Of a stretch of DNA of 29,709 nucleotides, positions 3-25,603 are shown one piece after another; position 1 is the first letter of the stretch; every line of letters begins with the position of its first letter. Below the pieces are notes generated by a model. It ran no database searches. It had not been told where the DNA came from and saw only the letters and a program-made list of their open reading frames with translations. The translations under genes were made by a program, and so were the position numbers. The stretch is from assembly GCA_016926595.1 (NCBI GenBank), contig JAFGOG010000020.1:1-29709 (forward strand), given 5' to 3'. Source of the stretch: Anaerolineae bacterium. Its GTDB lineage: Bacteria; Chloroflexota; Anaerolineae; JAAYZQ01.

Positions 3-3000
3 CCCGGCAGCCAGGCGTCGGACCTCGACCAGGTGCGTGACGGTTGGCAGGAACAGGTCGAGGCCCAATTCCACCGGGCGACCTGCCTGGGGTTGATCGA
101 CCGCATTCAGGCCCGGCTGCCGGTGGAGATCCGCCTGGACCGGGTCAAGCCGGCCTACATCGCCGCGGACAGGGTCGGCGATGAGCTGCGCCGGGCGATT
201 GAATTGGCCGGCAAGCAGGCCAACGCGCACGCGGATGGACGCCGCCAACTGGAGCATCTGGCGGCGCCGGCCAAGCCAACCCCTACCCAGGTGGCAGAGA
301 TGGTGGATGCTATCAAGGCAACCAGCAGCCTCGACTGCGGTCGGCTGGACCGGTTGGTGGGACACGTCCTGGGCAGCCACCTGGACGATTTGATCGCCCG
401 TTACCAGGATTCCGCAAATCGGGCCGCCGGCGACCGAAGGGAGTCCCGGGGCACGAGCGGAGTGGACAAGGAAGCCTCTCTCCCCGGAGGGGACCTCCGC
501 CAGGGCCGGCTGGCCCGGGACCTGGAGCGGCTGCGCGACACGGTGGCCGAGAGCAAAAAGGGCGGGCGGGTCGACCTGGTGAGCCTGCTGCGGCAGCTCA
601 ACGACATGGTCCACCTGGAGCTGGAGGAGATCGAGGCACTGCTCAGCCAGGCCGCAGGCCATGAATATGACAAGTGGGCGCAGCGCCAACTGGCTGAAGT
701 TGAGGCGATCGCGGCGCGCGCACCCCTGGCCGATACTAACTGGGAAGCCATCGCCGAGCACCTGCTGGCCATCCACTACATCCAGAGGCAGGCGTTCGAC
801 CGTGAGCACCGCCGCCGCGCCGCGTGGATGCCCCGCTTTCCGTTCAGCCTCATGGCCCAGGCCCTCGTCCAGGACATCGAGCCGGAAGAGCTGCGCCGCG
901 AGATCCTGGAATCGCTGCATTGGGCCGTCGAGCAGCGCGAACAGACCTGGGGCCAGGCCGAGTTTAAACGGTGGGCGCGCCTGTCCCTCGGCGACTTGGA
1001 CCCCAAAAGGCAAAGCTCCCTGGCCCGTTACCTGGGCGCGCGCCAGCTCGGCGATCAGCGCCGCCTCACGGTAGAGGAGCTGGACCCTGACCTCCAAGAC
1101 CGCTTGCGCTTTATCCTGGTGTTGAGGAGCCTCAAGCAGCGACACGTGCGCCTGGGCGATCTGCCGCAGGCCGAGACGATACTGGCCGGGCTGAGCCACA
1201 CCATCGATGCCAGCATACTCGACAAGCCTGTCGGCGAGCTGGGCGGCGAGCTCCAGGAACGGATCGGCGCCCACCTCCGCCGGACCGGAATGCTGGACGA
1301 TGCGGCCGCCCGGGCCAGGCTCGTCGAGCAGCCTATCCGCGATTGGGATCGCCGCACCCGCGACGAGGCGGCGGCTTTCTTGGGGAGGCGGTTCCTGGAA
1401 GCGCACCAGGAGCGGCCGTTGGCGGACCTGGAACCGGCCGGCCGCGATCTGGCTATCGCCTACCTTCAGCGGCAGAGGTACTTTGTGGACGAAACGCGGG
1501 TGCAGCGCTTTTTCGTTCACCAGCGGCTGAGCGACCTGCCGGCTGAGACGCGGCGGGCGGCCATATCGCTGCTGGCGCGCTCGCGGCTGGATCGCGTCGC
1601 CCAGCGCAAGATCTCGAACCTGGACGTCAGCACCAGGCAGCTAGTCCTCGCCTCCCTCCAGCAGGCTGGGTTTTTCACCGACCAGGAGGGCCGCGACCAG
1701 CTCTTGGGCCGGCGGCTGGCCGACCTCGAACCGGAGCTGATAGTCGGGGTGAAAGCTTCTCTGGCCCGCGAACAGTGGGGCGACCGCCCTCTGCGCGACC
1801 TGGGCGACGGCGTGCGCCGCTCCGTCATCGACCGTCTGGCGCAGATAGGCCTGCTGGCCGACCCGGATCGCATCCGGCGCCTGGCCGGCCAGCGCCTGGC
1901 CGACCTGGACGGCGCGCCGGTCGCCGAAATCCGCGACAGGCTGTTCGGCCAACTGCGAGCCGACCTGGCGACCAAGACCATGGAGGAACTGCCGCCCGAT
2001 ACAAGCCAGATCGTCCGGCAGGCGTTGGAAGAGCGGGGCTATTTCGTAGACGAGACCAAGGTCGGCTGGTACGAGCGCAAGACGTTGGCCCAGCTCCCGC
2101 CTGACGTGCTGCGCGGCCTGGAGCAATGCTTGGGGCAGATCCGCGTGGCGGAATTGGCCGCAACCCCGTTCCGGGATCTGCCGGCGGAAACTCAAAAAGA
2201 ACTGATCGCCTTCTTTGATCAGGAAGGCCTGCTCACTGACCGCGCCGAACGGCTGCGCCTGACCCAAACGGGCGCCATAGCTCAATGGCCCGAGGCGATC
2301 CATGACGCCATCGCCCGGCACCTGGGGCGGCGGTGGCTGGTCCAGATCCGAGATCGCCGGCCGCCGGCTTTGCCCGACGAAGAAAGGAACGCGGTGTGGG
2401 CTTGTCTGCGGGGCAGCGGCTACTTTAATGACCAGTTCAAAGAGGAGCTGTTCCCCTACCAGCGGCTGGACGAGTTCGACGCCGAGATCCAGCGGGGGGT
2501 TGAAGATGACCTGCTTCAGCGCCTCAGCCGCATGCTGGAAACGCAGCCGGTCGGCGACCTTCCCCAGGAAATGCAGGCCGCCATCCAGGAATGGTTGGCT
2601 CAGGGCGACTATTTTATCGACGCGGATCGGCTGCGCCAGGTAGAGGAATCGCCGGCGCAGGATCTGGCGCCTCCTATCCGCCAGGCGATCGAGCAAGCTC
2701 TGGCTGAGACCCAGTGGGTGACGCTGCGCGTTGAGGAAGGCCGGCTGGTGGCCGACCTGTCACCCCAGGTGCAGGCGGCTCTGTGGCGGCACCTCGACGA
2801 AATCGGCTACTTTATCGACGACGACAAACAGACCCAGACGTTGGGGCGTCGCCTGGCTGACCTGGGCAGCGAGCTGTACGAGCAGGTCGTGCGCCACGCA
2901 GCCCGGCACCTCGACGCCGAGCTGGGCGACATGCCGGTTGCAGACATGGACGGCGATCTGCGCCAGGGACTGCGCGATGCCCTGGAATCACAGGGATACT

Positions 3001-3830
3001 TTGACCAGGCTGAGACCCAACCTGAACGGGTCCGCCTCTTGAGCCAGCCCCTTGCCGCCCTGCGGCGGGAGGACCTGGAAGCGTTGGCCGTCGAGTTTGG
3101 CCAGGCAAAGGTAAAGGCTTGGGCGGCGCAAGAGACCCAACATGGGCGCTTGAGCCTGGGCGACCTGGATGCGGCGGAGCGGGAGGTCATCCTTGCTCAC
3201 TTGCAAAGCCGCGATTGGTTTCTGGATTCAAGCCAGCTCGGCCAGCTTCAGAAGCAGCGGGTCCGCGACTTGGGCGATCCAGAACTGATCGAGATGCTGC
3301 GCTGCGAACAGGCGGCCGCATTGCGCCAGATGCAGCTAGGCAACCTGGATCGCGAGTGGACTGAGTGGCGCGCCGCGCTTCGCCCTTTGCTGCAGCAGGC
3401 AGAATTGGAGTTCGACGAGGGCCAGATGCACGCCATACGCAACACCAGGGTGGCGGATCTCGATCCAGACCTGTACGACGAGCTGGTCGACGGATTGGGC
3501 AGCGAAGCGATGGCTGCTTGGGGGGCAACCCCCTTCCAGAACCTGGACGAGCAGCAGCAGGCGCTATTGCGATCCTATCTGGGACGGAGGATCATGGGGC
3601 GCATCGAACAGACAGCGCTGCTCTATACGATCAGCCGCCTGTGGATCGACTATCTGACCGATATCGAGGATCTGCGGCGGGGGATTGGGCTGGAGGCTTA
3701 TGGCCAGCGGGATCCGCTGGTGGAGTACAAGCGGCAGGCGTTTGAGCTATTCGAGGAGTTGGGAGCCAATATCCGGCGGACGGTCGTTCGCTCCCTCTTT
3801 CGCTACGCGCCAGAACCGCTACGCCGCTAG
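3..3830 (+). CDS. secA: Protein translocase ATPase SecA, C-terminal part with giant repeat insertion (5' partial)
   Basis: The reading frame is open to the left edge, so the N-terminal motor domains lie outside the window; the GTG at 33 is probably internal. The last ~70 residues (from nt 3609) are recognisable SecA helical-scaffold sequence: a long helix with LWIDYLTDIEDLRRGIGLEAYG, then QRDPLVEYKRQAFELFEEL and a short tail. SecA is the cytoplasmic ATPase that drives unfolded preproteins through SecYEG. Before this motif lie over 1,100 residues with no counterpart in ordinary SecA (whole protein about 800-1000 aa). The first ~415 are charged and helix-rich; the next ~776 are about twelve degenerate ~63-residue repeats with [GD]YF-x-D and LADL signatures. 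The protein ends in PEPLRR without the usual cysteine-rich SEC-C zinc motif. The SecA identity of the end is firm. The missing N-terminus could not be checked, so a SecA-derived fragment remains possible. Confidence 0.8.
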   Translation, partial: PGSQASDLDQVRDGWQEQVEAQFHRATCLGLIDRIQARLPVEIRLDRVKPAYIAADRVGDELRRAIELAGKQANAHADGRRQLEHLAAPAKPTPTQVAEMVDAIKATSSLDCGRLDRLVGHVLGSHLDDLIARYQDSANRAAGDRRESRGTSGVDKEASLPGGDLRQGRLARDLERLRDTVAESKKGGRVDLVSLLRQLNDMVHLELEEIEALLSQAAGHEYDKWAQRQLAEVEAIAARAPLADTNWEAIAEHLLAIHYIQRQAFDREHRRRAAWMPRFPFSLMAQALVQDIEPEELRREILESLHWAVEQREQTWGQAEFKRWARLSLGDLDPKRQSSLARYLGARQLGDQRRLTVEELDPDLQDRLRFILVLRSLKQRHVRLGDLPQAETILAGLSHTIDASILDKPVGELGGELQERIGAHLRRTGMLDDAAARARLVEQPIRDWDRRTRDEAAAFLGRRFLEAHQERPLADLEPAGRDLAIAYLQRQRYFVDETRVQRFFVHQRLSDLPAETRRAAISLLARSRLDRVAQRKISNLDVSTRQLVLASLQQAGFFTDQEGRDQLLGRRLADLEPELIVGVKASLAREQWGDRPLRDLGDGVRRSVIDRLAQIGLLADPDRIRRLAGQRLADLDGAPVAEIRDRLFGQLRADLATKTMEELPPDTSQIVRQALEERGYFVDETKVGWYERKTLAQLPPDVLRGLEQCLGQIRVAELAATPFRDLPAETQKELIAFFDQEGLLTDRAERLRLTQTGAIAQWPEAIHDAIARHLGRRWLVQIRDRRPPALPDEERNAVWACLRGSGYFNDQFKEELFPYQRLDEFDAEIQRGVEDDLLQRLSRMLETQPVGDLPQEMQAAIQEWLAQGDYFIDADRLRQVEESPAQDLAPPIRQAIEQALAETQWVTLRVEEGRLVADLSPQVQAALWRHLDEIGYFIDDDKQTQTLGRRLADLGSELYEQVVRHAARHLDAELGDMPVADMDGDLRQGLRDALESQGYFDQAETQPERVRLLSQPLAALRREDLEALAVEFGQAKVKAWAAQETQHGRLSLGDLDAAEREVILAHLQSRDWFLDSSQLGQLQKQRVRDLGDPELIEMLRCEQAAALRQMQLGNLDREWTEWRAALRPLLQQAELEFDEGQMHAIRNTRVADLDPDLYDELVDGLGSEAMAAWGATPFQNLDEQQQALLRSYLGRRIMGRIEQTALLYTISRLWIDYLTDIEDLRRGIGLEAYGQRDPLVEYKRQAFELFEELGANIRRTVVRSLFRYAPEPLRR
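1281..3608 (+). repeat. About twelve degenerate ~63-residue repeats inside the SecA-like protein
   Basis: Translated repeats begin at residue ~417 (counting from the GTG at 33) and run to ~1192. Each starts near a [GRD]-[YFL]-F-x-D motif (RYFVDE, GFFTDQ, GYFVDE, GYFNDQ, DYFIDA, GYFIDD, DWFLDS). It continues about 12 residues later with RLADL or a variant, and has a second DL or DLP near its middle or end. Spacing is about 60-70 residues. Similarity is at protein level; no long exact DNA repeats were noticed, so the array appears old. Predicted content is helical with charged surfaces. I do not recognise a named repeat family. Confidence 0.75.
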
Positions 3831-3889: not shown

Positions 3890-4032
3890 AGGTGCAACGG
3901 CAAATTCGCCGGTTGTCGTGCGACATCCGGGGGTTGACCTGATCGATGGCCCCGTCTGCGGTTGTAGGGGAAGCATCGGGCCAGTGTGTAGCGGGGCAGC
4001 GTTGGCCCCAAAAACAAAGGGGAGGTGCAACT

Positions 4033-4410
4033 TTGGTCTTTAGCGGAGAAGATTTCACCACACGCCTTATGAACGATATGGATCCCCAGCTTCTGGACCT
4101 GGTCAAGACCAAGGTAAACTCGTTCATCAAATGGGACCTGGTCCGTTTCCTGCGCGAGAATCCTAACACAGCGGACACAGCCGATGGCATCGCCAAGTAC
4201 ATCGGCCGTAATGCTGCCACCATCGAAACCGAATTGCGCGACCTGTGCCAGGCCCGGATCATGGAGATGAGATCTGTGGAAGGGATGCCTGTGTATTCGC
4301 TGACCACAGATCCGGCCATCCGGGAGCTGATCGACAGGTTCATTGCCGCCTGTGAGGACCGCCACTTTCGGGTCAAGGTCATCTACCACATTGTCCGTGG
4401 TATGCGCTAG
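4033..4410 (+). CDS. Winged-helix DNA-binding protein (predicted regulator)
   Basis: A 125-residue protein. I chose the TTG at 4033 because GGAGG sits 7 nt upstream; the in-frame ATG at 3946 would add an unlikely low-complexity extension and lacks a good ribosome site, and the ATG at 4069 is another option. Residues ~30-90 read as a winged helix-turn-helix: IKWDLVRFLRENP, then a helix with TADGIAKYIGRNAATIETELRDLCQARIM and a wing ending in MPVYSLTTDP, similar to MarR/ArsR-like or archaeal-type transcription regulators. The C-terminal helix may dimerise. It is the first gene after the promoter and is followed 117 nt later by the KaiC-like ATPase, so it may regulate that cassette or work with the ATPase. 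The target is unknown. Confidence 0.7.
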   Translation: MVFSGEDFTTRLMNDMDPQLLDLVKTKVNSFIKWDLVRFLRENPNTADTADGIAKYIGRNAATIETELRDLCQARIMEMRSVEGMPVYSLTTDPAIRELIDRFIAACEDRHFRVKVIYHIVRGMR

Positions 4411-4527
4411 TCTATGGGCCGCCAGAGTGAGCTCTGGCCAGCGCGCGCCCATCGATTCGCAAAAAGGATGGCCTGGCATAGTGCGGTATATCCTACACAG
4501 GATCAAGATTCACACGGGAGGCAAAGA

Positions 4528-5295
4528 ATGAGCAACGATCGCGTTAAAACCGGCATCAAGGGTCTTGACGAGATGCTGGGCGGTGGGTTCCTGCCGCAGA
4601 CAGCCAACCTGGTGGAAGGGCCGCCTGGAACCGGCAAGAGCACTTTCGGCATGCAGTTCATATATAACGGCATCCGCGACCACAATGAGCCCGGCCTGAT
4701 CGTCACATTTGAGGAGTTCCCCCAGCAGTATTACCGCGACGCGCAGAGCTTGGGTTGGGATTTTCGCCAACTGGAGCGCGATGGCAAGCTGCGGGTGATC
4801 ATGACCAGTCCGGAGGTGAGCCGGGCCGATCTGGAGAGTGTCGGCGGAACGATTGAAACGCTGGCGCGTGAGATGGGGGCCCGCCGCATCCTCGTCGACA
4901 GCATCTCCCATTTTGACCAGTTGTCAGAGGATCCGGTCGAACTACGAGCTGTGGTATATGGCTTTATAAACTCACTCAAGCGTGAGGGGCTGACCAGTAT
5001 CCTGACCCGTGAGAGCCCGGTTCTGTTGGGCGGGGACGAAGAGCAGGATAACACAATCGCTTTCGTGGTTGACTCGTACGTTTTGCTCCGCTATGTCGAG
5101 ATCGACAGTGCGATCCATAGAGCCCTGCTGGTTTTAAAGCTGCGGGGGGGCGATCACGCCAAAGACATCCGCCAGTTCGAGATCACCGGTCAGGGTATCG
5201 AGATCATGAGCAAGTTTGAGGGGCGGGAAGGCATTATGAGCGGCAGCCCCAGGCGCATGGCCGACGCATTCATGGAGGCCTTTAGGCAACCGTAA
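4528..5295 (+). CDS. Single-domain KaiC/RadA-like ATPase
   Basis: A 255-residue RecA-fold ATPase. The ATG at 4528 follows GGGAGG, and the protein begins with the typical KaiC-family entry TGIKGLDEMLGGGF. Walker A GPPGTGKST lies at residues 31-39. The adjacent-glutamate motif VTFEEFP (E62/E63) matches the catalytic glutamates of KaiC domains. Walker B is RRILVDSISHF near 115-125. True KaiC has two such domains and phosphorylated Ser/Thr in the second; this protein has only one and no KaiA or KaiB gene is nearby. It is therefore better called a KaiC-like signalling ATPase than a clock protein. It lies between a winged-helix gene and small membrane proteins, upstream of a large sensor kinase. 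A role in sensing energy state or motility control is inference only. Confidence 0.85.
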   Translation: MSNDRVKTGIKGLDEMLGGGFLPQTANLVEGPPGTGKSTFGMQFIYNGIRDHNEPGLIVTFEEFPQQYYRDAQSLGWDFRQLERDGKLRVIMTSPEVSRADLESVGGTIETLAREMGARRILVDSISHFDQLSEDPVELRAVVYGFINSLKREGLTSILTRESPVLLGGDEEQDNTIAFVVDSYVLLRYVEIDSAIHRALLVLKLRGGDHAKDIRQFEITGQGIEIMSKFEGREGIMSGSPRRMADAFMEAFRQP

Positions 5296-5305
5296 TATTG
5301 CCCAC

Positions 5306-5599
5306 ATGACACAGACTATCGGCTCCATCCTAGTGTTGTATAGCTGGATCGTAGTTGCCATCCTGCTTTTCTTTCTGGTGCTGATCGGGCGTTTCTACCA
5401 GATGCAGTTCCGGCAGCGATCCTACTACCAGTTGTTCTCGGCGCCGTTGGTGTTATTTCTGGCAGGAGCGATCTGGTATCTGTTCAACACTCGGGATTTT
5501 GTCGGATTGCCAGGTCCGGATCTGTTGTTTTTGATTGGAGGGCTGGTGCTGATCGGCCTGGGCTATACCCTATACCGGATTATGATGGCGAGGAAGTGA
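5306..5599 (+). CDS. Small membrane protein, three predicted helices
   Basis: A 97-residue hydrophobic protein starting 10 nt after the KaiC-like gene. Predicted membrane segments lie at about residues 7-27 (ILVLYSWIVVAILLFFLVLIG), 44-60 (APLVLFLAGAIWYLF) and 72-90 (LLFLIGGLVLIGLGYTLY), separated by short charged loops such as RFYQMQFRQRSYY. I recognise no family or catalytic motif. Its stop codon overlaps the start of the next small membrane gene, so the two are probably co-translated and may form a complex in the cytoplasmic membrane. A membrane anchor or sensor for the adjacent soluble ATPase and kinase is a reasonable guess, not shown. Confidence 0.7.
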   Translation: MTQTIGSILVLYSWIVVAILLFFLVLIGRFYQMQFRQRSYYQLFSAPLVLFLAGAIWYLFNTRDFVGLPGPDLLFLIGGLVLIGLGYTLYRIMMARK

Positions 5600-5934
5600 T
5601 GGAAGTCATCACCGCGATTTTGGGATCGATCGGCCTGGCGTCGGTCATTTTTATCCTGGTGATCCTGGCGCGTTTCGGCCGGAAGCTTGGCGCTGTGACC
5701 AAGATGCGGCCGTTCTACTATGGTTATTACGGGGCGATCGGATGCTTATGCCTGGCCCTTCTCGCGCACTTGATAAGGGCAAGTGTGTTTTGGGCGCCGG
5801 TTGAGTCTGTGCCTTCAGTGCTAACCGATCCAATCTTCTACTTGCTCCTGCATCACCTGCCGATGGCCATTGCCTTGAGTGTCAGCCTGGGTGTCACGTG
5901 GTATTACTGGAGCTGGCTGCTGAAAGAACGATAG
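5599..5934 (+). CDS. Small membrane protein, three predicted helices
   Basis: About 111 residues from the ATG at 5599, which shares one base with the preceding stop (TGATG); a GTG at 5596 is an alternative start. Hydrophobic segments lie near residues 5-25 (TAILGSIGLASVIFILVILA), 40-62 (YYGYYGAIGCLCLALLAHLIR) and 85-108 (LLHHLPMAIALSVSLGVTWYYW). The overall pattern resembles the previous protein, with an N-terminal helix followed by a basic loop, which suggests related or paired subunits. No family is recognised. It ends 3 nt before the histidine kinase, so kinase and membrane proteins are probably made together. Confidence 0.7.
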   Translation: MEVITAILGSIGLASVIFILVILARFGRKLGAVTKMRPFYYGYYGAIGCLCLALLAHLIRASVFWAPVESVPSVLTDPIFYLLLHHLPMAIALSVSLGVTWYYWSWLLKER

Positions 5935-5937
5935 TGA

Positions 5938-8900
5938 ATGGCCGAAAAAGAGAGGATGCCAGATCGAGCAACTGCTGCTGTCAACAACAATCAGGCAGGG
6001 GAGGAAGCAGACCGCCAGCAGGCGGCTCAGTTACGGCTGATCGCCGACATCAGCCAGCGCGTCTTGTCGATTCTGGATCCAGAGGCCTTGCTCGACTATG
6101 CAGTCAAGGCGATCCAGACTGAATTCAGTTATTACTACGTTGACGTATTCCTGACCAACCCCCAGACCGGGTACGTTGTCTTTCGCAGCAGCAGCCATCC
6201 TGAAAAAATGCTGCACTGGCAAGAAAAAGGCCTGCGCTTCCGAATCGGGGAAGAGGGGATTATTGGACATGTAGCTGCCACCGGACGCCCTTACCTGTCG
6301 AACGACGTACTTCACGACCCGTTCTATATCCCCGACGAACTGCTCCCACACACCCGTTCTGAGCTGGTAGTACCGATCCGAGCTGGTGAGCGCGTGCTCG
6401 GCGTGCTGGATCTGAACAGCGAACAACCAAATGCTTTTGACGAGCAGGACCTGTTCGTGACGCAGAGCCTGGCCGATCAACTGGCCCTCGGGCTGGAGAA
6501 TGCCCGCCTGTTCGCGGCTGAGGCCCGCCGCCGGCGTGAGGCCGAGAAGCTACAGACAGCGACCCAGGCATTGAGCGCGACGCTCGATCTGAACCAGGTT
6601 TTGGAGTCGATCCTGGAGGAGCTGCAGGATGTAGTGCCTTACGACAGCGCATCGGTGCAGCAACTCAGAGATGGGTCGTTGGAGATCATCGGCGGCCATG
6701 GGTTTGCCAATTCCGAGCAGCTACTGGGCATGCGCTTTGATCTAGTCGCAGGCGACAACCCCAACCGGGAGGTCATGCTCAAGCGCGCCCCGGTGATCAT
6801 AGACGATGCCCCGACGATCTACCAGGGGTTTCAGAGCGAACCACACGTCCAAACACCCATCCGCTCCTGGCTGGGGGTGCCGCTGTTGTTCGGGGACCGG
6901 TTGATCGGGATGATCGCGCTCGACAAGCGGGAGCCTAGTTTCTACACCCAGGAGCACGCTCGCCTGGCGATGGCCTTTGCAGCGCAGGCAGCCATTGCCA
7001 TCGAGAATGCGCGCCTGTTCAGCGCGGAACGCCAGAGCCGCCTGGAGCTGCGGAGCCTCCAGGACACGGTTGCGGCCCTGAGCGCAGAGCTGCACCTGGA
7101 CACGCTTCTGGAGCGGATTGTGAACGAGGCAGCGCGGGCGTTTCAGGCTGAAGCGGTCAGTCTGATGCTGTGGGACAAAACGTCCAGCAATATGGTGGTG
7201 TCGGCCGGCTTTGGGCTGACGGCCGATTACGCGCAGCAGCAACGGATTCCAAGGGAACGGCTGACTGCGATGATCCCGCCTGACGGAAGGCCGCGCCCGA
7301 TTTACACAGAGGATCTAGCCGAGACCCCATACGGCGATCGGGAGCTGATCGTCAGGGAAGGGCTGCGAAGCGCGTTGTCTGTGCCGCTGTATCAAACACA
7401 ATTAAGCGGCATTTTGAATATCTATAGCAAGGGAAGGATCCGCACCTTCAGCCCTGCCCAGATCGATCTGGCCGAGACTTTTGCCGCCCAGGCGACGGTC
7501 GCCATCAAAAACGCGCGGCTATACCAGGCCGAGCGCGAGCAGCGGGCGCTGGCCGAGGCCATGCGCCAGGCCACCGCCGCCATCAGCAGCAGCCTGGACC
7601 TTGACCAGGTTTTGGATGACATTCTGGAACAACTGAACAACGTGATCCCTGGCGACGCCGTCAGCGTTATGCTGATCGACGGCGAGTATGCGCGCATGGT
7701 GCGGACGCGCGGCTACGAGCGCCTCGGCACTGCAAGCAGCTTCTCTTCTTTCGCCTTGAGGATAACCAATACCTCTACTTTTCGCGTTATGCAACAGACG
7801 GGCGCCCCTCTCCTAATCCCCAACACCGCAGACTATCCAGGTTGGGTACAGATGCCCGAGACTCCGTGGCTGGGCTCTTATGCCGGGGCGCCGATCTACG
7901 TGGGCGGACAGGTAATCGGCTTTCTGAACGCCGACAGCAGCACGCCTGACTTTTTCACCCAGGCCGACTGCGACCGGCTCCAGGCCTTTGCCGCCCAGGC
8001 AGCGGTCGCCATCCAGAACGCCCAGCTCTACCAGGAGCTGAGCCATCACCTGGAAGAGGTCCAGCTCTTGAACAAGGCGGCGCTGGCCGCCAGCTCTACT
8101 TTGGATTTCGACGAAGTGATCCGGCGAACCCTGGCAGCCCTATTGAAGATGCCCTGCTTTGAGCGGGCCAACGTACTGCTGCTGGACAGCGATACAGGCG
8201 AACTGTGGCTACATCCGGCTTTGGCTCACAGCGACCATTTTCCCCAGCGGGCCGACTTTCGCATCCCGCCGGGCATGGGCATCTCGGGGCGGGTGGTTCA
8301 GACGGGCAAGCCGTGGCGCGTGGACGATGTGCGCCAGGTGCCGACCTACGTGGCCGGCTACCCCGATACCCTCAGCGAGATAGCCGTGCCGCTGCGGGCC
8401 GGCGACCGGTTCATCGGCGTGCTGGACGCGCAGAGCACCCGGCTGAACGCCTTTACCGAGGAGGACGAGCGATTGCTCGTCACCCTGGGCGGGCAGCTAA
8501 GCACTGTCATCGACAACGCCCGCCTGTACGGCGAGGCCCGCCAGCGTGTCCGAGAGCTCACCGCCCTCAGCCAGGTCAGCCAGGCGCTCAACGAGGCCAG
8601 GGATCTCAAAGCCGTCCTCGACATCGTCCTCGAGGAGGCGTTCGAGCTCATGGGCAGCCAGGAGGGCTCGATCATCCTCATCTCCCCCCCGGGCGGCAAC
8701 AGGCTGCGCATGGTCGCCGAGCGGAGCCTGGGATCCGAGGTCGTCGACGCCTTTAACAACCGGCCAGTATACACCCACGAAGGCACCTACCGCCGCGCCC
8801 TCGCCACCGGCCAGATCGTCGAGGTACCAGACACGTCGGCCGACCCCGACTTTCTGCAAGACGTCGGCTCGCGAGCCAAGTCTATAACCAACGTGCCCTT

Positions 8901-10275
8901 GATCACCGAGCACAGGGCCATCGGATTGATTGCCGTAGACGGCCTGCCCAAGGACGACGCCACGAGGCGGCTTCTCATGGCCCTGGCCGACATGGCCGCT
9001 GCCGCCATCGACAAGGAACGGCTCCACCAGGAAACCACCGACCGCCTGGCCGAAGTATCCACCCTCTATACCCTGTCCACCCAGATAACCGGCAGCCTGT
9101 CCCTCAGCCGGGTCATGGAATCGATCGTCACCATCCTCAAGGTGACCATCAACTGCCGCGCCTGCTGCATCTTTCTCGTCGACCCGGCCACAAGCACGCT
9201 GCGGCTCGAAGCCAGCAGCGGCCTGCCCCAAGAACAGCACGCCTCCGCCCGGTTGAGCCCCGATCGCGGCATCGGCGGCCGCGTCTTTAACGAGCGCCGT
9301 TCCATCTACATTCCCGATGCGCGCTTGGTCGCCGACCTGGATTACTTTGATACTGAGGTCAGCTCCCTCTTGGCCGTACCCCTCATCGTTCGCAACCAGG
9401 TCATCGGCTTGCTTGCCCTCGATGATACCAGGACCGGCGCCTTTGCCGGCGAGATACGGCTCCTCACTATCGTCGCCGCCCAGGCCGCCGTCGCCATCGA
9501 GAACGCCCAGCTCTACGAAAGCCTGCAGGCCAGCTACCACGATCTCGAAGACGCGTACAGCGCCTTGCGCGAGCTGGATCGCATGAAGTCCGAGCTGGTC
9601 CAAAACATCTCCCACGAGCTGCGCACACCCCTTACCTTTGTCAGGGGCTACCTCGAGCTGCTCCAAGAGGGTGACATGGGAGAGCTGAGCCAACAGCAGA
9701 AACAGGCCCTTGACATCGTGGCCGACAAGGCCAGCCTCTTGTCGCGCCTGGTCGACGACATTATCACCCTGCAGTACGCCAGAGAGCAGGTTCAGTTTCA
9801 CTCCGTGCCCCTCGCCGACGTGGGCCGCAACGCCCTCCGCGCCGCCCAGGCCAGCGCCGACCAGGCGCGCATCGCTCTCCGAGACGAGATCGCCGCCGAT
9901 CTGCCCCTCATCCTGGGCGACGAGCAGCGCCTCGGCCAGGTTTTCGATAACCTGCTCAGCAACGCCCTCAAGTTCAGCCATCCGGGCGGCGCCGTTACAG
10001 TCCGCATCTACGAAGAGGCCGGATCCATCCGCGCCGAGGTCGAGGATCAGGGCGTCGGCATCCCCGCCGACAAGCTGACCCGCGTCTTTGACCGGTTTTA
10101 CCAAATCGACGGCTCTACCACCCGGCGCTTTGGCGGCACCGGGCTGGGGTTGGCTATCGCCAAGCAGATCGTCGAGGCCCATGGGGGCCAGATAGGCGTT
10201 CGCAGCAAGCAAGACGAGGGGAGCTGCTTCTACTTCACCATCCCCAAGGCTCCGCCGCCGGGCGCCCAGCCTTGA
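5938..10275 (+). CDS. Soluble sensor histidine kinase with seven GAF domains
   Basis: A 1445-residue protein. Seven GAF domains follow one another with a very regular period of ~165-169 residues. Each ends in a helix of the AIENARLY type (ends at about 192, 361, 529, 698, 864, 1030 and 1193), which leads into a coiled linker. A HisKA domain follows with phospho-acceptor His at ~1226 in SHELRTP. The ATPase domain has its N box near 1335 ([10 protein letters not shown]), G1 near 1370 (DQGVGIP) and G2 near 1400 (GGTGLGL). No membrane segment, PAS domain or receiver domain is seen, so it should act in the cytoplasm. GAF domains commonly bind cyclic nucleotides, tetrapyrroles or small metabolites; the ligands here cannot be read. 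It is the last gene of the KaiC-like cassette, and no response regulator is adjacent. By eye, codon use becomes more C-ending after about 8,500. Confidence 0.93.
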
Positions 10276-10295
10276 TCAACGACGAGGAGGTCATC

Positions 10296-11225
10296 GTGAC
10301 CATATCGATCGAAACCTTTGATAAGCTTTTGCAGGCAGCCAGGGCCAAAGGACCCAAAAAAGTGGCCATCGCCGCCGCCCACCAGAGCGAGGTCATGCTC
10401 GCCGGCCTCGACGCCGAGCTGGCTGGCCTGGCCGAGGTGATCCTGGTCGGAGACGGCGGCGCCATCGAACAGATCGCCGCCAAAGAAGGCTTTGATATCT
10501 CCCGCATGGAGGTCATCCACCAGCCCCAGCCGCAGGAAGCTGCCTGGCAGGTGATGAGGCTGATCAGCGACGGCAAGGCAGAGATCGCCATGAAGGGCAA
10601 AGTGGAGACCAGCGACTTTTTGCGCGCCGCTCTCAACAAGGAGATGGGGCTGCGCACAGGCCGCCTCTTTACCCACGTAGCCGTTTTCGAAATCCCCGGC
10701 TTTGACCGGCTCATCTTTATTAGCGACGCCGGCGTCGTCGTCGCTCCCGACCTGGAGCAAAAGGTCCAGATCGTCCAGAACGCCATCTTCGTCGCCCACG
10801 CCCTGGGAGTCACCCTGCCGCGCGTGGCCGTCCTGGCCGCCACCGAAGTGGTCAACCCCAAGATCCCCACCACGCTCGACGCTGCCAACCTGTCCAAAAT
10901 GGCCGACAGGGGTCAGATCAGGGGCGGCCTGGTCGATGGCCCGCTCGCCCTGGACAACGCCATCTCGCCCGAATCGGCCCGGATCAAGGGCATCAAGAGC
11001 GAGGTCGCCGGCTATGCCGACATCCTCATCGCCCCAGACATCGAAGCCGGCAACGTCCTGGCCAAGGCCATCACCTACTTTGCCCAGGGCAAGATGGCCG
11101 GCGTGGTCGTCGGCGCCCGGTGCCCGCTGATCGTCTCATCGCGCTCCGACACCCGCGAGGCCAAGCTGGTCGGGCTGGCGTTAGGGGTCATGCTGGCCCA
11201 CGACAACAGGCGCCGGTCAAAATAG
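10296..11225 (+). CDS. Phosphate acetyl/butyryltransferase-family protein, copy 1
   Basis: A 309-residue protein from the GTG at 10296, chosen because GAGGAGG lies 5 nt upstream; a TTG at 10272 that overlaps the kinase stop is less likely. The family transfers acyl groups between CoA and phosphate. Family hallmarks are KKVAIAAAH near the N-terminus, ISDGKAEIAMKGKVETSDFLRAAL, the internal VAVLAATEVVNPKIPTT, and the C-terminal IRGGLVDGPLALDNAIS, then YADILIAPDIEAGN and GARCPLIVSSRSD. The length (~300) fits Ptb rather than long Pta. A second copy lies at 12131, with an ATPase gene between. With the oxidoreductase downstream, the likely role is acyl-CoA to acyl-phosphate conversion during fermentation of 2-oxoacids. 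The chain-length preference is not readable. Confidence 0.85.
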   Translation: MTISIETFDKLLQAARAKGPKKVAIAAAHQSEVMLAGLDAELAGLAEVILVGDGGAIEQIAAKEGFDISRMEVIHQPQPQEAAWQVMRLISDGKAEIAMKGKVETSDFLRAALNKEMGLRTGRLFTHVAVFEIPGFDRLIFISDAGVVVAPDLEQKVQIVQNAIFVAHALGVTLPRVAVLAATEVVNPKIPTTLDAANLSKMADRGQIRGGLVDGPLALDNAISPESARIKGIKSEVAGYADILIAPDIEAGNVLAKAITYFAQGKMAGVVVGARCPLIVSSRSDTREAKLVGLALGVMLAHDNRRRSK

Positions 11226-11232
11226 TTCAATC

Positions 11233-11988
11233 ATGAGCAAGTTGGACCTGGCCACAAACCACAGCCATATCCTGCTCTTCACCGGTCGCTTTGGCAGCGG
11301 CAAGACCGAGGTCGCGATCAACTATGCCCTGCGGCTGGCATTGGCCCAGCCTCCGGCGAGCGCGCGGCCCGGAACGTCCGCCGAGGCCGTCATCCTGATC
11401 GACCTGGACATCGTGACACCCTACTTCCGGTCACGGGAGATCGGCGCGGTGCGGGCCATGGAGGAACACGGGGTGCGGGTGGTCGCGCCGCACGCCGCCG
11501 GCCAACACCTGGATATACCCGCCATTACACCCCAGATCCTGGGCGCGCTCCAGCAGTCGGAGCGACCGGTGGTGGTCGACGTGGGCGGCGACCCCCAGGG
11601 AGCGCGCGCTCTGGGCCAGTTCAGCGGCGCTATCCGCCAGGCCATGACCGAGGGGCGGCCCTACACCATGCACTTTGTCGTCAACCCCTACCGCCCCTTT
11701 ACCAATACACTGCAGGGGCTTGCCCAATCGATCGCCGAGATCGAGACGACTTCCCGGCTGAAAGTAAGCAGCCTGGTGAGCAATCCCAACCTGATCGGCG
11801 AGACGACAGTGCAGGCGATCGTCGACGGGCACGCCCGGATCGAGGAATTTGCCGGCGAGCTGGGACTGCCCATCGCCTTCTTGTGCGTCGAGAGGCAGTG
11901 GGTCCAACAAGTGAAGGCGGCCATGCGCCACACCGGAGCCCGGCCGATGCTGGTGCTGGACCGCTACTTTGCCATGCCCTGGGAGTAG
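11233..11988 (+). CDS. P-loop ATPase of unknown role between two Ptb-like genes
   Basis: A 251-residue protein starting 7 nt after the first Ptb-like gene. It opens with a Walker A of unusual spelling, GRFGSGKTE (residues ~18-26). It has an acidic LIDLDIVTPYFRSREIG motif at ~55-71, then RPVVVDVGGDPQGAR at ~110-125, which resembles a Walker B/switch region of SIMIBI-type ATPases such as MinD or CooC. The DPQGAR and NPYRPF motifs suggest recognition of a specific partner. No signal peptide or membrane segment is seen. Its location between two acyltransferase genes, upstream of a 2-oxoacid:ferredoxin oxidoreductase, points to a service role for this pathway (maturation, metal insertion or regulation), but no function is established from sequence. 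Confidence 0.75.
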   Translation: MSKLDLATNHSHILLFTGRFGSGKTEVAINYALRLALAQPPASARPGTSAEAVILIDLDIVTPYFRSREIGAVRAMEEHGVRVVAPHAAGQHLDIPAITPQILGALQQSERPVVVDVGGDPQGARALGQFSGAIRQAMTEGRPYTMHFVVNPYRPFTNTLQGLAQSIAEIETTSRLKVSSLVSNPNLIGETTVQAIVDGHARIEEFAGELGLPIAFLCVERQWVQQVKAAMRHTGARPMLVLDRYFAMPWE

Positions 11989-12078
11989 CTATGGCCGCCA
12001 TGAATGAAAACCGTACGCGTGAGTCTAATTCGAGCGAGTCGCCATGCCCTTTCGGGCGCCACGATGAACGAAAGCTGT

Positions 12079-12101
12079 GGGGGCGCGGTCGCCGCGCCCT
12101 C
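12079..12101 (+). promoter_or_regulatory. GC-rich hairpin in the leader of the second Ptb-like gene
   Basis: GGGCGCGG at 12081-12088 and CCGCGCCC at 12092-12099 form a perfect 8-bp stem with loop TCG, extendable by one G-T and one G-C pair. It lies in the 142-nt gap between the ATPase and Ptb-like copy 2. No T-run follows, so it is not a standard terminator; it may tune mRNA stability or reduce read-through. Confidence 0.4.
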
Positions 12102-12130
12102 CGGGTGGGTCTATTTTCGAGGGAGGCCGA

Positions 12131-13051
12131 ATGACGGCAGGAAAACAACCGGCGATTAGAAACCTGGACCAATTGATGGAAGCCGCTCTGGCTCGCGGGC
12201 CGAAACGGGTGGCCATCGTCGGAGGCGCCCAACGACAAACGCTCCATACCGCGTGCCAGGCCCGCGACATCGGCCTGGCGCAGTGCACCATCATCGACTC
12301 CCCGAACCGAGCCAGGACCATCGCCGCCGAGGAAGGGCTGGACCTTTCGGGCATGGAGATCATAGCCGAAGACGACCTGCTCCAGGCTGCTTACAAAGGC
12401 GTAGAGATGATCCATGCCGAGCAGGTGGACCTGTTGATGAACGGCCGCGCCCAACCGGTGGAACTGCTCAAGGCCGCACTGGACTCGAAAACCGGCCTGC
12501 GGATCGGCAAGCTCTTGTCCGATATCAGCGTTTTCGAGATCCCAGAGTTTGACCGGCTGCTGCTGATCAGCGACGTGGCGATCGTCGTCACACCAACGCT
12601 GGCCCAAAAGATCGCCATTGTGCAGAATGCCATCGACACGGCCATCGATCTGGGGATCGAGCGGCCCAAAGTGGCAGTTCTGGCAGCCACAGAGATGGTC
12701 AACCCTGAAATGCGGGCCAATATGGACGCCGCCAACCTGTCCAAGATGGCCGAGCGGGGCCAGATCCGGGGCGGGATCGTGGATGGGCCGCTGGCGATGG
12801 ACAATGCCATCTCACCCAGGGCAGCAGAGATGAAAGGCATCCACAGCTCCGTGGCCGGCTATGCCGACATTCTGATCACGCCTGACGTCGAATCGGGCAA
12901 TATCCTGTCCAAGGCCATTTCCTATTTTGCCAAGGGCCGGGTGGCGGCGGTAGTCGTCGGCGGCAAGTGTCCAATCATCATGCCATCCCGTTCCGATCCA
13001 CCGGAACAAAAACTGCTGTCGCTGGCGCTGGGGGTTTACTTGGTCAAGTAG
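12131..13051 (+). CDS. Phosphate acetyl/butyryltransferase-family protein, copy 2
   Basis: A 306-residue protein from the ATG at 12131, with GGGAGG close upstream; the frame stays open further upstream, but that stretch translates to arginine-rich sequence that looks non-coding. It aligns by eye over its whole length with the copy at 10296. Shared motifs are KRVAIVGGAQ, SDISVFEIPEFDRLLLISD, VAVLAATEMVNPEMR, GQIRGGIVDGPLAMDNAIS and GGKCPIIMPSRSDPPEQK. The residue differences are numerous and spread out, so this is an older duplication or two subunits rather than a recent copy. It probably catalyses acyl-CoA/acyl-phosphate exchange with a different substrate range, or pairs with copy 1. No acetate or butyrate kinase is encoded nearby. 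Confidence 0.85.
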   Translation: MTAGKQPAIRNLDQLMEAALARGPKRVAIVGGAQRQTLHTACQARDIGLAQCTIIDSPNRARTIAAEEGLDLSGMEIIAEDDLLQAAYKGVEMIHAEQVDLLMNGRAQPVELLKAALDSKTGLRIGKLLSDISVFEIPEFDRLLLISDVAIVVTPTLAQKIAIVQNAIDTAIDLGIERPKVAVLAATEMVNPEMRANMDAANLSKMAERGQIRGGIVDGPLAMDNAISPRAAEMKGIHSSVAGYADILITPDVESGNILSKAISYFAKGRVAAVVVGGKCPIIMPSRSDPPEQKLLSLALGVYLVK

Positions 13052-13173: not shown

Positions 13174-13440
13174 ATGAGCTACATTGTCATTGCCGAGGAC
13201 CGATGCAAAGGGTGCGAGCTGTGCACCACGGTCTGCCCGCAGGACCTGGTGCACATGGCGGATCACTTTAATGTGAAAGGCTATCGTCCCTCGATCTTTG
13301 TCGATCCCGACGGCAAGTGCACCGGTTGCACACTGTGCGCAATGATGTGTCCGGACATGGTGATCACCGTCTACCGGACGGTGAGAAGAAAACGGGATGT
13401 GGGAGACGCCAAGCCGGCAGGCGGGAGGGTAGAGCCATGA
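13174..13440 (+). CDS. 2-oxoacid:ferredoxin oxidoreductase, delta (ferredoxin-like) subunit
   Basis: An 88-residue protein with two [4Fe-4S] motifs: C11, C14, C17 and C21 followed by Pro, and C49, C52, C55 and C59 followed by Pro. The start is supported by AAAGGAGGG about 10-15 nt upstream. In the Por/Vor/Kor families this subunit passes electrons from the TPP-linked active site to an external ferredoxin. Its stop overlaps the start of the alpha subunit (ATGA), so the two are translationally coupled. The C-terminal tail ([15 protein letters not shown]) is longer than in many delta subunits and basic. Confidence 0.9.
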
Positions 13441-14480
13441 AAACACTGATGAAAGGGAACGAGGCGATTGCCGAGGCCGCCATCCGCGCCGGATGTGAAG
13501 CCTACTTTGGGTATCCGATCACGCCTCAGACCGAGGTGCTGGAGTATATGTCGCGGCGGATGCCCGAGCTGGGCCGGGTCTTTGTCCAGGCGGAAAGCGA
13601 GCTAGGGGCGATCAATATGGTTTACGGCGCAGCCTGCACCGGCGCGCGGGTGATGACCACAACCTCCAGCCCCGGCTTTAGCTTGATGCAGGAAGGGATC
13701 TCGTACATCGCCCTGTCTTTTGTGCCATGCGTCGTGGTCAATGTCATGCGCGGTGGACCCGGCCTGGGCAACATCCAGCCGGCGCAGGGCGACTATCTCC
13801 AGATGGTCAAGGGAGGGGGGCACGGCGACTATAACCCTATCGTGCTGGCGCCAGCCACCATCCAGGAAGCGGTGGATCTGGTTATCCTGGCCTTTGATCT
13901 GGCGGAAAAGTATACGCAACCGGTGATGGTCATTGCCGATGGGATGGTCGGCCAGATCATGGAACCGGTCGAGTTCCCCGACATGCAGCCGATCAGGCGA
14001 GCCACCTTCCCCTGGGCATTGACCGGGGCAAAAGACCGGCCGCACAACATCATAACTTCACTGTTTCTCAACGCCAGCCAACTGGAGGAGCAAAACTTGC
14101 GGCTGCAGCGGATCATCGCCGAGATCCGGGCCAACGAGGTCCGCTACGCCGAATATATGATGGACGGCGCCGAGATTGTGGTAGTGGCCTATGGTACGGC
14201 TGGGCGTATTGTGCAGACGGCGGTCAAGCAGGCGCGGTCGCAGGGGATTCCGGTTGGCCTGTTTCGCCCCATCTCGGTATTCCCCTACCCGTACGCAGCT
14301 CTGGACAAGGTCGCCGACGCCACCCGCCAGTTTCTGGTGGTAGAGCTAAACGCCGGACAGATGCTCGAGGATGTCCGGCTGGCCACCCGCGACCGGGTGC
14401 CGATCTCTTTCTTTGGCAAGATGGGCGGGGTGGTTCCGCTGCCGGAAGAGATCCTGGACGAGATCAAGAAGCTGGCATAA
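13437..14480 (+). CDS. vorB: 2-oxoacid:ferredoxin oxidoreductase, alpha subunit (VorB type)
   Basis: A 347-residue protein from the ATG at 13437, which overlaps the ferredoxin stop. It carries the pyrimidine-binding and domain II regions of the family. Motifs are [15 protein letters not shown] near the N-terminus, [47 protein letters not shown] and [19 protein letters not shown]; the C-terminal half has [15 protein letters not shown] and [12 protein letters not shown]. The match is closest, from memory, to 2-oxoisovalerate (VorB) and 2-oxoglutarate (KorA) alpha subunits. The enzyme oxidatively decarboxylates a 2-oxoacid to acyl-CoA plus CO2 and reduces ferredoxin. VorB is favoured because Ptb-family genes lie next door; a 2-oxoglutarate enzyme cannot be excluded. 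Confidence 0.88.
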
Positions 14481-14494
14481 GGAAGGAGCCCAAA

Positions 14495-15262
14495 ATGACA
14501 GAGGAAGTTGAGCTAGTCTTTAGCCGTCCCAAGTCCTTGGCGGATGTGGTTACCACCTACTGCCCTGGCTGTATACACGGCATCACCCACCGTCTGATCG
14601 CCGAAGTGATGGACGAACTGGAGATCCGGGAGCGGACGATCGGCATCGCGCCGGTCGGCTGCTCGGTGCTGGCCTATTACTTTTTTGAGTGTGATTTCGC
14701 CGAGGCAGCACACGGCCGGGCGCCGGCGATGGCGACAGGCATGAAGCGTACCAACCCGGATAAGATCATCTTTACTTACCAGGGAGATGGCGACCTGGCG
14801 TCGATCGGCACAAACGAACTGATCCATGCCGCAGCGCGCGGGGAGAATATCACCATCATTTTTATCAACAATGCAGTGTACGGCATGACCGGCGGCCAGA
14901 TGGCGCCAACGACGCTGCCGGGCATGGTCACAACTTCATCGCCCTACGGCCGCGATGTCAAAACCCAGGGGTATCCGGTCCGTGTGGCCGAATTGGTGTC
15001 GCAGTTGGACGGCGCGGCGTATATCGTCCGGCGGACGGCCTATAACCCGGCCGAGGTGCGCAAGCTGCGCAGGGCGATCAAGACCGCCTTCCAGGTACAG
15101 ATGGCCGGGTTGGGTTTTTCCCTGGTCGAAGTGGTGTCCAACTGCCCGACCAACTGGGGCATGACGCCCAAGGAATCGCTCAAGTTTGTAGAAGAGCGGA
15201 TGGTCGCCTACTACCCACTGGGTGACTATAAGGTCAAAGACGAGGTCAAGGCCTTGAAATAA
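14495..15262 (+). CDS. 2-oxoacid:ferredoxin oxidoreductase, beta (TPP-binding) subunit
   Basis: A 255-residue protein starting 14 nt after the alpha subunit, with AAGGAGG upstream. The N-terminal YCPGCIHG motif is typical. The TPP-binding signature is [18 protein letters not shown] followed by [34 protein letters not shown] and the C-terminal [15 protein letters not shown], with a conserved Cys near the end, also fit the family. This subunit holds thiamine pyrophosphate and is the decarboxylating half of the enzyme. It is co-transcribed with the alpha and gamma genes. Sequence alone does not separate a branched-chain (Vor) from a 2-oxoglutarate (Kor) enzyme. Confidence 0.9.
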
Positions 15263-15272
15263 GGAGCCAGCC

Positions 15273-15818
15273 ATGCACGAAGAGATCATTATCTCCGGTT
15301 TTGGGGGGCAGGGCGCCCTCTTTGCCGGCCAATTGCTGACCTATACCGGGATGGACGAAGGATGGCACGTGACCTGGATCCCGTCCTACGGGCCCGAGAT
15401 GCGAGGGGGCACGGCCCACTGCATCGTCATCCTATCGGACGACGACATCGGCTCGCCGATCATCCGCCAACCGACGATGGCCATCGTCATGAACCCAGCT
15501 TCAATGGACAAGTATGAGCCGCTGGTCAAACCGGGCGGACTGCTGGTGGCCAACTCGACGCTCGTCCGAGACAGGTCAAAGCGAGATGACATCGAGGCGA
15601 TCTATGTCCCGGCCAACGAACTGGCTGTGGAGCTGGGCAATGTGAGAATGGCCAATGTCATCCTGCTGGGGGCCATGCTCGGCAGGCGGGAGGTTGTGTC
15701 GCTCAAGGGCATCGAACACACCCTGGAGAGCCACCTTCCTGAGGCACGTAGAAAGATCGTCGAGCCCAACAAGCGGGCTCTAGCCCGCGGGGTCGAGTTT
15801 GTGAGGAGTCAGGAATAG
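15273..15818 (+). CDS. 2-oxoacid:ferredoxin oxidoreductase, gamma subunit
   Basis: A 181-residue protein 10 nt after the beta subunit, with AAGGAG upstream. It has the gamma-domain hallmarks: [18 protein letters not shown], then [31 protein letters not shown] and [14 protein letters not shown]. In this superfamily the gamma domain helps bind CoA at the active site. It completes a delta-alpha-beta-gamma operon in the usual four-subunit architecture. The metallo-hydrolase gene follows only 8 nt later and may be in the same transcript. Confidence 0.9.
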
Positions 15819-22737: not shown

Positions 22738-22938
22738 GCAGCCAATGGGGGCTGGAGAAGTTACTTTTAGATGGCTGGCTGTGGCCGGTACCCTGCGCAC
22801 CGGCCTTTATTCTACATGGCGATCAGCTTTCAGTTTTCGGCGGCGTTTGCGCCCGGCTGGAAGCTGATTGCTGAAAGGGCAGAGGGCGACCATGAGGGGG
22901 AGGGCGACCACATGGAGTCGCCCATACAGGAGGGGAAT
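22738..22938 (+). promoter_or_regulatory. Structured ~200-nt mRNA leader of the lysine operon
   Basis: Four hairpins can be drawn. (a) 22739-22743 with 22750-22754. (b) GGCCGGT 22783-22789 with ACCGGCC 22799-22805, followed by TTTATTCT, which is terminator-like. (c) A long stem, 22820-22829 with 22861-22870 (10 bp with one G-T), continuing inward and capped by 22842-22845 with 22850-22853. (d) GGGCGAC 22902-22908 with GTCGCCC 22917-22923, just before the ribosome site at 22928. A second copy of GGGCGAC at 22884-22890 could compete for the same partner. No known riboswitch class was recognised; the lysine riboswitch signature was not seen. Confidence 0.45.
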
Positions 22939-24246: not shown

Positions 24247-24277
24247 CGAATAATCAAGGAGCAGTGGAGGATTTCCC

Positions 24278-25603
24278 ATGAAGAAGGTTCTCGTACTCGG
24301 CGCCGGCCTAGTCGCTAGACCGCCGGTGCAATATCTGATGGATCTGCCCGGCGTCGAGGTCACGGCCGCCAGCCGGACTGTGAGCAAGGCACAGGCAATC
24401 GTCGGCAACCACCCACAGGGCCGGGCGGTAGCCCTCAGCGTGGACGACGACTTGGCCTTGGAAGCGGCTGTCAGTCAAGCCGACCTGTCGATCAGCCTGC
24501 TGCCCTACGTTTACCACCCCAAGGTTGCGGCGTTGTGCGTCAAACACCGGAAGCACATGGTCACGACTTCGTACGTGAAGGACCAGATGAGCGCCCTCGA
24601 CGGCGCGGCCAAGGAAGCAGGGGTGATTCTGCTAAACGAGATCGGCGTCGATCCGGGTATCGACCATATGTCGGCGATGAAGGTCATCCACGAGGTAGAG
24701 CGCAAGGGCGGCAAGATTTCCAGCTTTGTGTCGTGGTGCGGCGGCCTGCCCGCCCCCGAAGCGAGCGACAACCCACTGGGTTACAAGTTCTCGTGGAGCC
24801 CCAAGGGGGTGCTGCTGGCCGGCAAGAACCCGGCCCGCTTTCAGAAAGAGGGGCGGATCGTCGAGATCCCTGGCGAGGAGTTGTTCGACCACTACTGGCC
24901 GGTGCAGATCCCGGGCCTGGGCGAGTTTGAAGGCTATCCCAACCGCGACAGCCTGCCCTACGCCGACACCTACGGCATCCGGCCCAGCGGTTGGATGTTC
25001 CGGGGAACGCTGCGCAACCCCGGCTGGTGCCGCACGCTAAAGACGATCTCGGCGATGGGGCTACTGGAAGACACGCCGGTGGCCGATCTGCCGGCCACCT
25101 ATCGCGGCCTGACCGCACGGCTGCTGGGCGCAGACGCTCGCTCTGACCTTCAGCAATGCCTGGCCGACCGGTTCGGCCTGGCCCGGTCTGACAAGCCGAT
25201 CGCCGACCTGGAATGGCTGGGGCTGTTCTCCGAAGATCCATTGCCTGCCGGCAAGAACACGCCGATCGACATCTTGACGGAGCGGATGTTGGGCTTGATG
25301 TCCTACAAGCCGGGCGAGCGTGACATGCTGATCATGCAGCACGAAATCGTGGCCGAATATGCAGACCACAGGGAAGCGATCACGGCAACGATGATCGACT
25401 ATGGCATCCCATACGGCGACAGCTCGATGTCGCGCACCGTTGGCCTGCCGGCTGCCGTGGCCACCGGTCTGATCCTGGACGGCGACATGGCAGGACAGAC
25501 CGGCGTGCAGACGCCGGTGATACCGCAGATCTACGAGCCGGTCCTGGCCAGGCTGGCCGGGATGGGCATCGGCCTGACCGAAAGGTGGGAAAAACTGCCG
25601 TGA
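24278..25603 (+). CDS. Saccharopine dehydrogenase (glutamate-forming), Lys9 type
   Basis: A 441-residue protein with AGGAGC and GGAGG upstream. It opens with the Rossmann motif [20 protein letters not shown] and continues with [16 protein letters not shown], then [43 protein letters not shown] and [15 protein letters not shown]. All of these match the yeast Lys9/LKR-SDH C-terminal enzyme. It splits saccharopine into glutamate and aminoadipate semialdehyde. Read in the degradative direction with the preceding reductase, it consumes lysine; in fungi the same type of enzyme works in lysine synthesis, but no AAA-pathway synthesis genes are seen here. The stop overlaps the next gene's likely GTG start. 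Confidence 0.92.

Follow-up and report, generated by a model that had tools for sequence, protein, structure and literature searches.

SecA, an essential motor of bacteria, has been studied extensively, and its size and set of domains are generally regarded as invariant. The locus described here raises the question of what has been built into a SecA of about 2,200 residues, how the addition arose and what it may do. The stretch analyzed (the window) comprises positions 1 to 29,709, forward strand, of contig JAFGOG010000020.1 from an Anaerolineae bacterium of the Chloroflexota (assembly GCA_016926595.1), and opens with the 3' part of a secA gene. An earlier reading of the DNA without database searches (the sequence-only reading) had proposed a SecA with a large repeat expansion in this place. 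We are virtually certain that 3..3830 is the 3' part of a SecA gene whose wing has grown to a base plus 14 three-helix units.

The window gene and its giant relatives

Residue numbers without another label refer to P0001, the window protein and the query of our protein search. The features of the gene, with the repeat units placed by a unit hidden Markov model (HMM), are as follows.

3..3830, + strand: 3' part of the giant secA, last 1,275 codons plus stop (open reading frame, Pfam, relatives)
3..593, + strand: non-repeat N-terminal part of the wing insert, residues 1-197 (alignment to relative P0003 from its residue 965 onward)
594..968, + strand: helical base of the insert, residues 198-322
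969..3620, + strand: array of 14 units of ~63 residues, three helices per unit, residues 323-1206 (profile self-comparison, unit HMM, AlphaFold2 model)
969..1130, + strand: unit 1
1131..1316, + strand: unit 2
1317..1508, + strand: unit 3
1509..1697, + strand: unit 4
1698..1877, + strand: unit 5
1878..2066, + strand: unit 6
2067..2258, + strand: unit 7
2259..2447, + strand: unit 8
2448..2633, + strand: unit 9
2634..2834, + strand: unit 10
2835..3032, + strand: unit 11
3033..3242, + strand: unit 12
3243..3431, + strand: unit 13
3432..3620, + strand: unit 14, the second half of which runs into the two-helix finger (unit HMM, profile comparison)
3540..3806, + strand: C-terminal part of SecA_SW, two-helix finger region, residues 1180-1268 (PF07516 positions 118-199, E 3.8e-21)

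The reading frame is open over all 1,275 codons and its left end runs off the contig; because the contig start cuts the gene, the window lacks the motor part. Residue 1 aligns with residue 965 of the nearest relative, P0003 (2,229 amino acids, 78% identical), from which we estimate that about 964 codons lie beyond the contig start. The G+C content by codon position is coding-like over the whole frame, at 0.75-0.87 for third positions versus 0.36-0.47 for second positions in 8 blocks. No Pfam family scores above cut-off in the first 1,179 residues. Among sequences of solved structures, the best SecA match has E 2.8e-11 and 20 of 21 matches (E up to 10) are SecAs, the remaining one having E 1.1. 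The SecA C-terminus recognized in the sequence-only reading is thereby confirmed. The expansion sits at the wing. What follows the expansion is, judging from the relatives, the two-helix finger end of SecA_SW and not the helical scaffold of that reading, and P0001 stops a few residues past it.

The protein search found 124 proteins, and all family counts given here are among the 120 matches listed, query included. Eighty-six of these are at least 2,000 amino acids long (hereafter the giants), which bears out the suspicion of a motor far bigger than usual. In P0003, SecA_DEAD (7-402), SecA_PP_bind (253-359) and P-loop_SecA (to 719) are followed by SecA_SW in two stretches, all in a single chain, and P0096, P0109 and P0111 share this order. 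Each of these four scanned relatives thus has DEAD and NBD2 motor domains (PF07517, PF21090), the preprotein cross-linking domain (PF01043) and the N-terminal, scaffold-helix end of SecA_SW (PF07516); the window does not reach the motor or the cross-linking domain and holds the C-terminal end of SecA_SW. The motor that the sequence-only reading expected upstream in the same chain is accordingly present in the relatives. The Walker A motif GEGKT occurs in 85 of the 86 giants, DE[VA]D and QLRGRxGRQG occur in all 86, and each of six motor motifs is found in 81-86 of them. Since motor, scaffold and finger are conserved, the giants would be expected, from their sequences, to carry out ATP-driven translocation through SecYEG.

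Canonical SecAs (E. coli, B. subtilis, M. tuberculosis 1nkt, T. thermophilus 2ipc) have the same order of NBD1, PPXD, NBD2, scaffold helix and two-helix finger. They are roughly 800-1,000 residues long, versus ~2,200 in the giants. An alignment to M. tuberculosis SecA breaks at residue 796 of P0003 and resumes at 2139 (716 and 780 in the ordinary protein). The helical wing domain, flanked by scaffold helix and finger, is thereby identified as the site of an insert of ~1,340 residues with 14 units; canonical SecA has ~65 wing-region residues there. The last helix of the base (residues about 292-322) is the counterpart of the last wing-domain helix of ordinary SecA, and the array lies between this helix and the finger. 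The sequence-only reading was right about a large wing insert, although its ~1,190 residues fell short of the whole. A second insert of ~90 residues lies within NBD2 of the main giant group (about 471-561 in P0003) and is absent from P0107, P0109 and P0111.

The units carry the motifs LxDLxPE, a helix ending in LGRxxL, PLxDLPxELRxxV and then GYFxDExR. Self-comparison of an 87-row profile yields off-diagonal matches down to E 2.7e-69, mostly within residues ~287-1229. In P0001 the unit HMM places 14 units between residues 323 and 1204, with 44-75 bits each. These scores are partly circular, because the model was trained on the same 14 segments. Relatives were left out of the training, and over the 86 giants the model counts 14 units in 72, 15 in 10, 12 in 2, 13 in 1 and 16 in 1. 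The scaffold-to-finger distance is 1285-1425 residues, with a standard deviation of 24, in the 84 giants where it is measurable (in 2 it is not). The self-alignment and HMM analysis that the sequence-only reading had proposed as checks therefore uphold its ~63-residue repeats and correct its count of about twelve, within residues 417-1192, to 14 within 323-1206. Its proposal of a structure prediction also bore fruit, in that AlphaFold2 returns a regular three-helix solenoid with regular helices (mean predicted local distance difference test score, pLDDT, 82.4). A superposition of the finger and the last wing helix with residues 730-830 of E. coli SecA gives 2.0 Å over 101 residues. The predicted solenoid has no clear match among solved structures.

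The named giant relatives are Anaerolineae or Chloroflexi bacteria, and from these names we infer that the genomes surveyed below belong to the class Anaerolineae. Public annotation of many relatives already reads 'preprotein translocase subunit SecA'. In the open literature, searched by titles and abstract openings and with subscription papers and preprints outside the scope, we found no description of an expanded SecA wing array, in agreement with the sequence-only reading, which knew of none. As far as we have seen, giant SecAs are thus catalogued yet apparently undescribed. By description, not sequence, the nearest published cases we found are the canonical SecA of planctomycetes (Kamneva et al. 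2015, PMC4452313), a housekeeping protein with a broken-up SecA_SW for which section 14 of that account describes no repeat array, and the second SecA of a spirochaete taken up below.

Origin of the array

Among 396 genomes of the same class, the full array was found in 8. A ninth genome, G090 (locus L054), is cut by a contig edge at 3,709 bases and was kept out of the 8, yet it clusters with the giants in the tree described below. Nineteen further SecAs are intermediate, with frames of 1,313-1,535 amino acids and scaffold-to-finger distances of 365-458 in 18 of them, and 1,951 amino acids and about 510 in L061. In the eight ordinary SecAs measured, this distance is 129-133 in four, ~195 in two (L068 and L070) and 281-289 in two. 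The last pair, L062 and L066 (near 285), belongs to the group nearest the expanded clade. L068 gives a single weak unit match of 10.3 bits.

The intermediates share the non-repeat base of the insert at the same place in the protein, and one group of them has one unit as well; they thus have 0 or 1 unit versus 14 in the giants. Several also give matches within the N-terminal part of a model of the insert. When the finger is omitted, base plus unit 1 (residues 198-368, E 4.7e-15) is recovered by a profile of 14 one-unit SecAs, which picks up other units at lower strength (E 7.6e-6 and 1.2e-5). A profile of five no-unit SecAs, treated in the same way, recovers the base alone (195-313, E 4.7e-9), and ordinary SecA profiles give no match, whether built from the two nearest (best E 0.06) or six others (best E 0.05). 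Including the finger adds a match of the one-unit profile to unit 14 plus finger (1136-1273, E 7.5e-31), so that one segment of the one-unit intermediates aligns with both unit 1 and unit 14. We considered and rejected the presence of units in the no-unit group. The top match of that profile with the finger included (E 9.1e-23, residues 860-1271) pairs the scaffold helix with array units, and its posteriors add up to 198 across 385 columns. The profile without the finger, which matches only the base, is longer than intended, the L058 insert having been cut too far upstream by motif.

A motor tree of 53 rows, from which the insert was omitted, unites 17 giants in one clade (FastTree support 100; IQ-TREE Shimodaira-Hasegawa-like approximate likelihood ratio test, SH-aLRT, 99). 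The 19 intermediates are sister to them (FastTree 99; SH-aLRT 98), and 17 ordinary SecAs fall outside, the root having been placed among the ordinary SecAs by assumption. The groups ('mid', 'mid2' and 'ordinary') had been set from length and distance before the tree was made. L074 (G217) was dropped for want of a usable frame, and L065 has no finger in the stretch taken. When 400 genomes of the phylum were searched using only the insert, 19 had a match at E <=1e-8: a giant in one, and frames of 1,317-1,411 amino acids in the other 18. All 19 were already present in the class surveys.

The units of P0001 are on average 21.8% identical in pairs (highest 39%), and Tandem Repeats Finder reports no tandem array at the DNA level (0 rows). 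This low identity and the lack of a DNA-level repeat show that the duplication is old and that the array now consists of fixed units. We consider it likely that an ancestor had the base and one 63-residue unit, that this unit multiplied in place until there were 14, and that the number was then held; amplification in place is the simplest reading of the series.

Other parts of these SecAs vary in length as well. In the intermediates (L045-L053, L055-L059, L061, L063, L071-L073), the stretch from Walker A to scaffold helix is ~617-825 residues versus ~552-645 in giants, so that growth in these SecAs was not confined to a single site. Walker A lies 484-504 residues from the frame start in L061 (G283), L060 (G034) and L064 (G038), which suggests an N-terminal extension or a fused open frame.

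Genome content and gene neighborhood

Gene content was surveyed in the 8 full-array genomes, whose completeness is unstated and which do not include the window's own genome. A SecA_DEAD search gave one match in 7 of them and none in G002, where the gene is cut by a contig. In G029 the motor match lies on a different contig, as would be expected of a split assembly. That search found no second SecA, of the SecA2 kind or otherwise, in any of the 8, so an ordinary secA elsewhere in the genome, which the sequence-only reading had named as a threat to its case, was not encountered. Each genome has one SecY, which is consistent with translocation through SecYEG. With no more than one SecA motor match and one SecY per genome, the giant probably serves its Anaerolineae-like bacterium as the sole, housekeeping SecA. 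In G023 the only SecY match (C189:4292-5329) has one TGA inside it. All 8 genomes encode one trigger factor, and a SecB search of these same 8 found none.

The zinc-binding (SEC-C) tail, defined here as CxCx8C[HC] after the finger, was found in none of the 86 giants (85 with a recognizable finger) and at none of 6 giant loci. It is present in 5 of 14 one-unit and 5 of 5 no-unit SecAs (10 of the 19 intermediates) and in 6 of 8 ordinary ones. The zinc domain of the SecA tail is reported to bind ribosomes and SecB, and 39 of 156 SecAs are reported to be without it (PMC6620043).

Downstream of secA, the window (3946-10275) encodes a 154-amino-acid protein without a Pfam match, followed by two larger genes, and further gene groups lie beyond them:

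4414-5295: KaiC-type ATPase, downstream of secA
5938-10275: histidine kinase of 1,445 amino acids with 7 GAF stretches, downstream of secA
10272-13051: two related phosphate butyryltransferase-like genes on either side of a 251-amino-acid gene without a family match
13317-15818: 2-oxoacid:ferredoxin oxidoreductase subunits, after the phosphate butyryltransferase-like genes
22771-26799: consecutive AlaDh/PNT-like, saccharopine dehydrogenase and class III aminotransferase genes

The KaiC-kinase cluster follows the giant secA in the same order at loci L001 and L002, as do the phosphate butyryltransferase-like pair and the gene between them. At L040 and L042 another gene is next to secA, within the roughly 1.1-1.2 kb taken beyond it. 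The row at 22771-26799 may perhaps serve lysine degradation, to judge from its gene families.

What the array may do

Two doubts about the gene itself can be largely set aside. A mis-assembled or decayed gene might be suspected because the contig start cuts the window gene and hides its own motor, because P0002, P0047 and P0051 have shorter frames though they are on long contigs, and because P0090 ends out of line with the family, its finger end lost and no finger motif left. However, the same architecture occurs on many separate contigs, the codon bias is coding-like throughout, and the flanking gene order is common to the window, L001 and L002; an artefact is already contradicted by the relatives and is scarcely credible. 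The open frames, the steady unit number and the steady insert length likewise argue against the frame break or pseudogene that the sequence-only reading had foreseen as a refutation. The giant might instead be an accessory, SecA2-like protein for special substrates that works beside an ordinary SecA. Accessory SecAs with extra repeats do exist: the second SecA of Treponema azotonutricium likewise joins a motor to a repeat solenoid, with TPR and NACHT domains, as described in PMC4452313. That protein is an extra copy with TPRs that Pfam recognizes, whereas the repeats here match no Pfam family above cut-off and sit in the wing of what is apparently the only SecA. With a single SecY in 8 of 8 giant genomes and no second SecA_DEAD match, we judge an accessory role very improbable.

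Given the identity of the protein, we tentatively favor a role on the preprotein side. The array would be a stiff, curved solenoid flanking the motor on its cytosolic side, near the place where ATP binding brings the preprotein-binding domain toward the wing, and would serve as a cytosolic cradle for preproteins or as a dock, or docking arm, for ribosomes. The movement of that domain toward the wing domain on ATP binding has been reported (PMC6123708). This position of the wing, together with the absent zinc tail, is what favors a cradle or dock, a putative role that is plausible and still short of an even chance. We prefer it to two readings that we hold to be unlikely. Solenoids often act as binding scaffolds, and the array might run laterally along the membrane; its ligand would then be another component of the translocon, a further SecA molecule or a protein of the envelope, and not the preprotein. 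In a substrate-engaged SecA-SecY structure, wing-domain residues R645 and E646 are reported to contact the lipid surface (PMC6599042), and an extension of the wing could therefore run along the membrane. However, the array (884 residues in P0001) is not basic overall, with 152 D/E versus 120 K/R, which does not favor binding to acidic lipids, and the neighbors of secA differ among the five loci compared (window, L001, L002, L040, L042) and offer no candidate partner gene. The other unlikely reading is neutral expansion, in which a wing that tolerates insertions grew by chance and the array was kept because it folds, with no distinct task. Wing distances in the class do range from 129 to 1425, the array evolves much faster than the motor, and these SecAs carry further inserts such as the one in NBD2. 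Against this, the array holds at 14 units in 72 of 86 giants with little spread in length, though arrays are 25-55% alike, which looks like length under selection; one may also argue, as a matter of reasoning, that ~900 unneeded residues of an abundant protein should be lost.

Taken as a whole, the explanation that joins a housekeeping SecA, a 14-unit wing array, amplification in place and a preprotein-side role seems to us about evenly poised between right and wrong. A number of observations weigh against it. A unit is visible by single-sequence HMM in only 6 of the 14 one-unit SecAs, so the claim of one unit rests on the profile comparison, and the direction from 1 to 14 is unproven, since this tree would equally accommodate a reduction from 14 units to 1 in the sister clade. 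The array diverges faster than the motor (25% versus 68% identity between P0003 and P0111), and thus no sharply conserved binding face is shown; the conserved unit positions are mostly of buried type. The single-SecA counts come from genomes of unstated completeness. Trigger factor is present in every giant genome, and the array is therefore no replacement for it. The zinc tail is also missing from 9 of 14 one-unit SecAs, 2 of 8 ordinary ones and the 39 of 156 in the published set (PMC6620043), so that its loss needs no array and the link between the two is loose.

The two ends of the array return to the same place on SecA in the best model from AlphaFold2, so that it would be a hoop rather than a free arm. 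This comes from a single model of low global confidence (predicted template modelling score, pTM, 0.39), and the hoop is a weak suggestion. The most far-reaching form of our explanation holds that a housekeeping SecA duplicated one element of its own wing again and again until 14 three-helix units made a hoop, closed or nearly so, of a solenoid type that has no solved counterpart, and that this hoop is a cytosolic cradle or ribosome dock that succeeded the zinc tail. We regard this form as doubtful. If it were true, motor and targeting chaperone would be one chain.

A lineage with a 2,200-residue SecA, apparently its only one, and a series of no, one and fourteen units provides a natural experiment on the role of the wing. 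The series also informs how repeat solenoids arise inside an essential machine, and it raises the question of whether the motor of a translocase could have a chaperone or a ribosome dock built into it.

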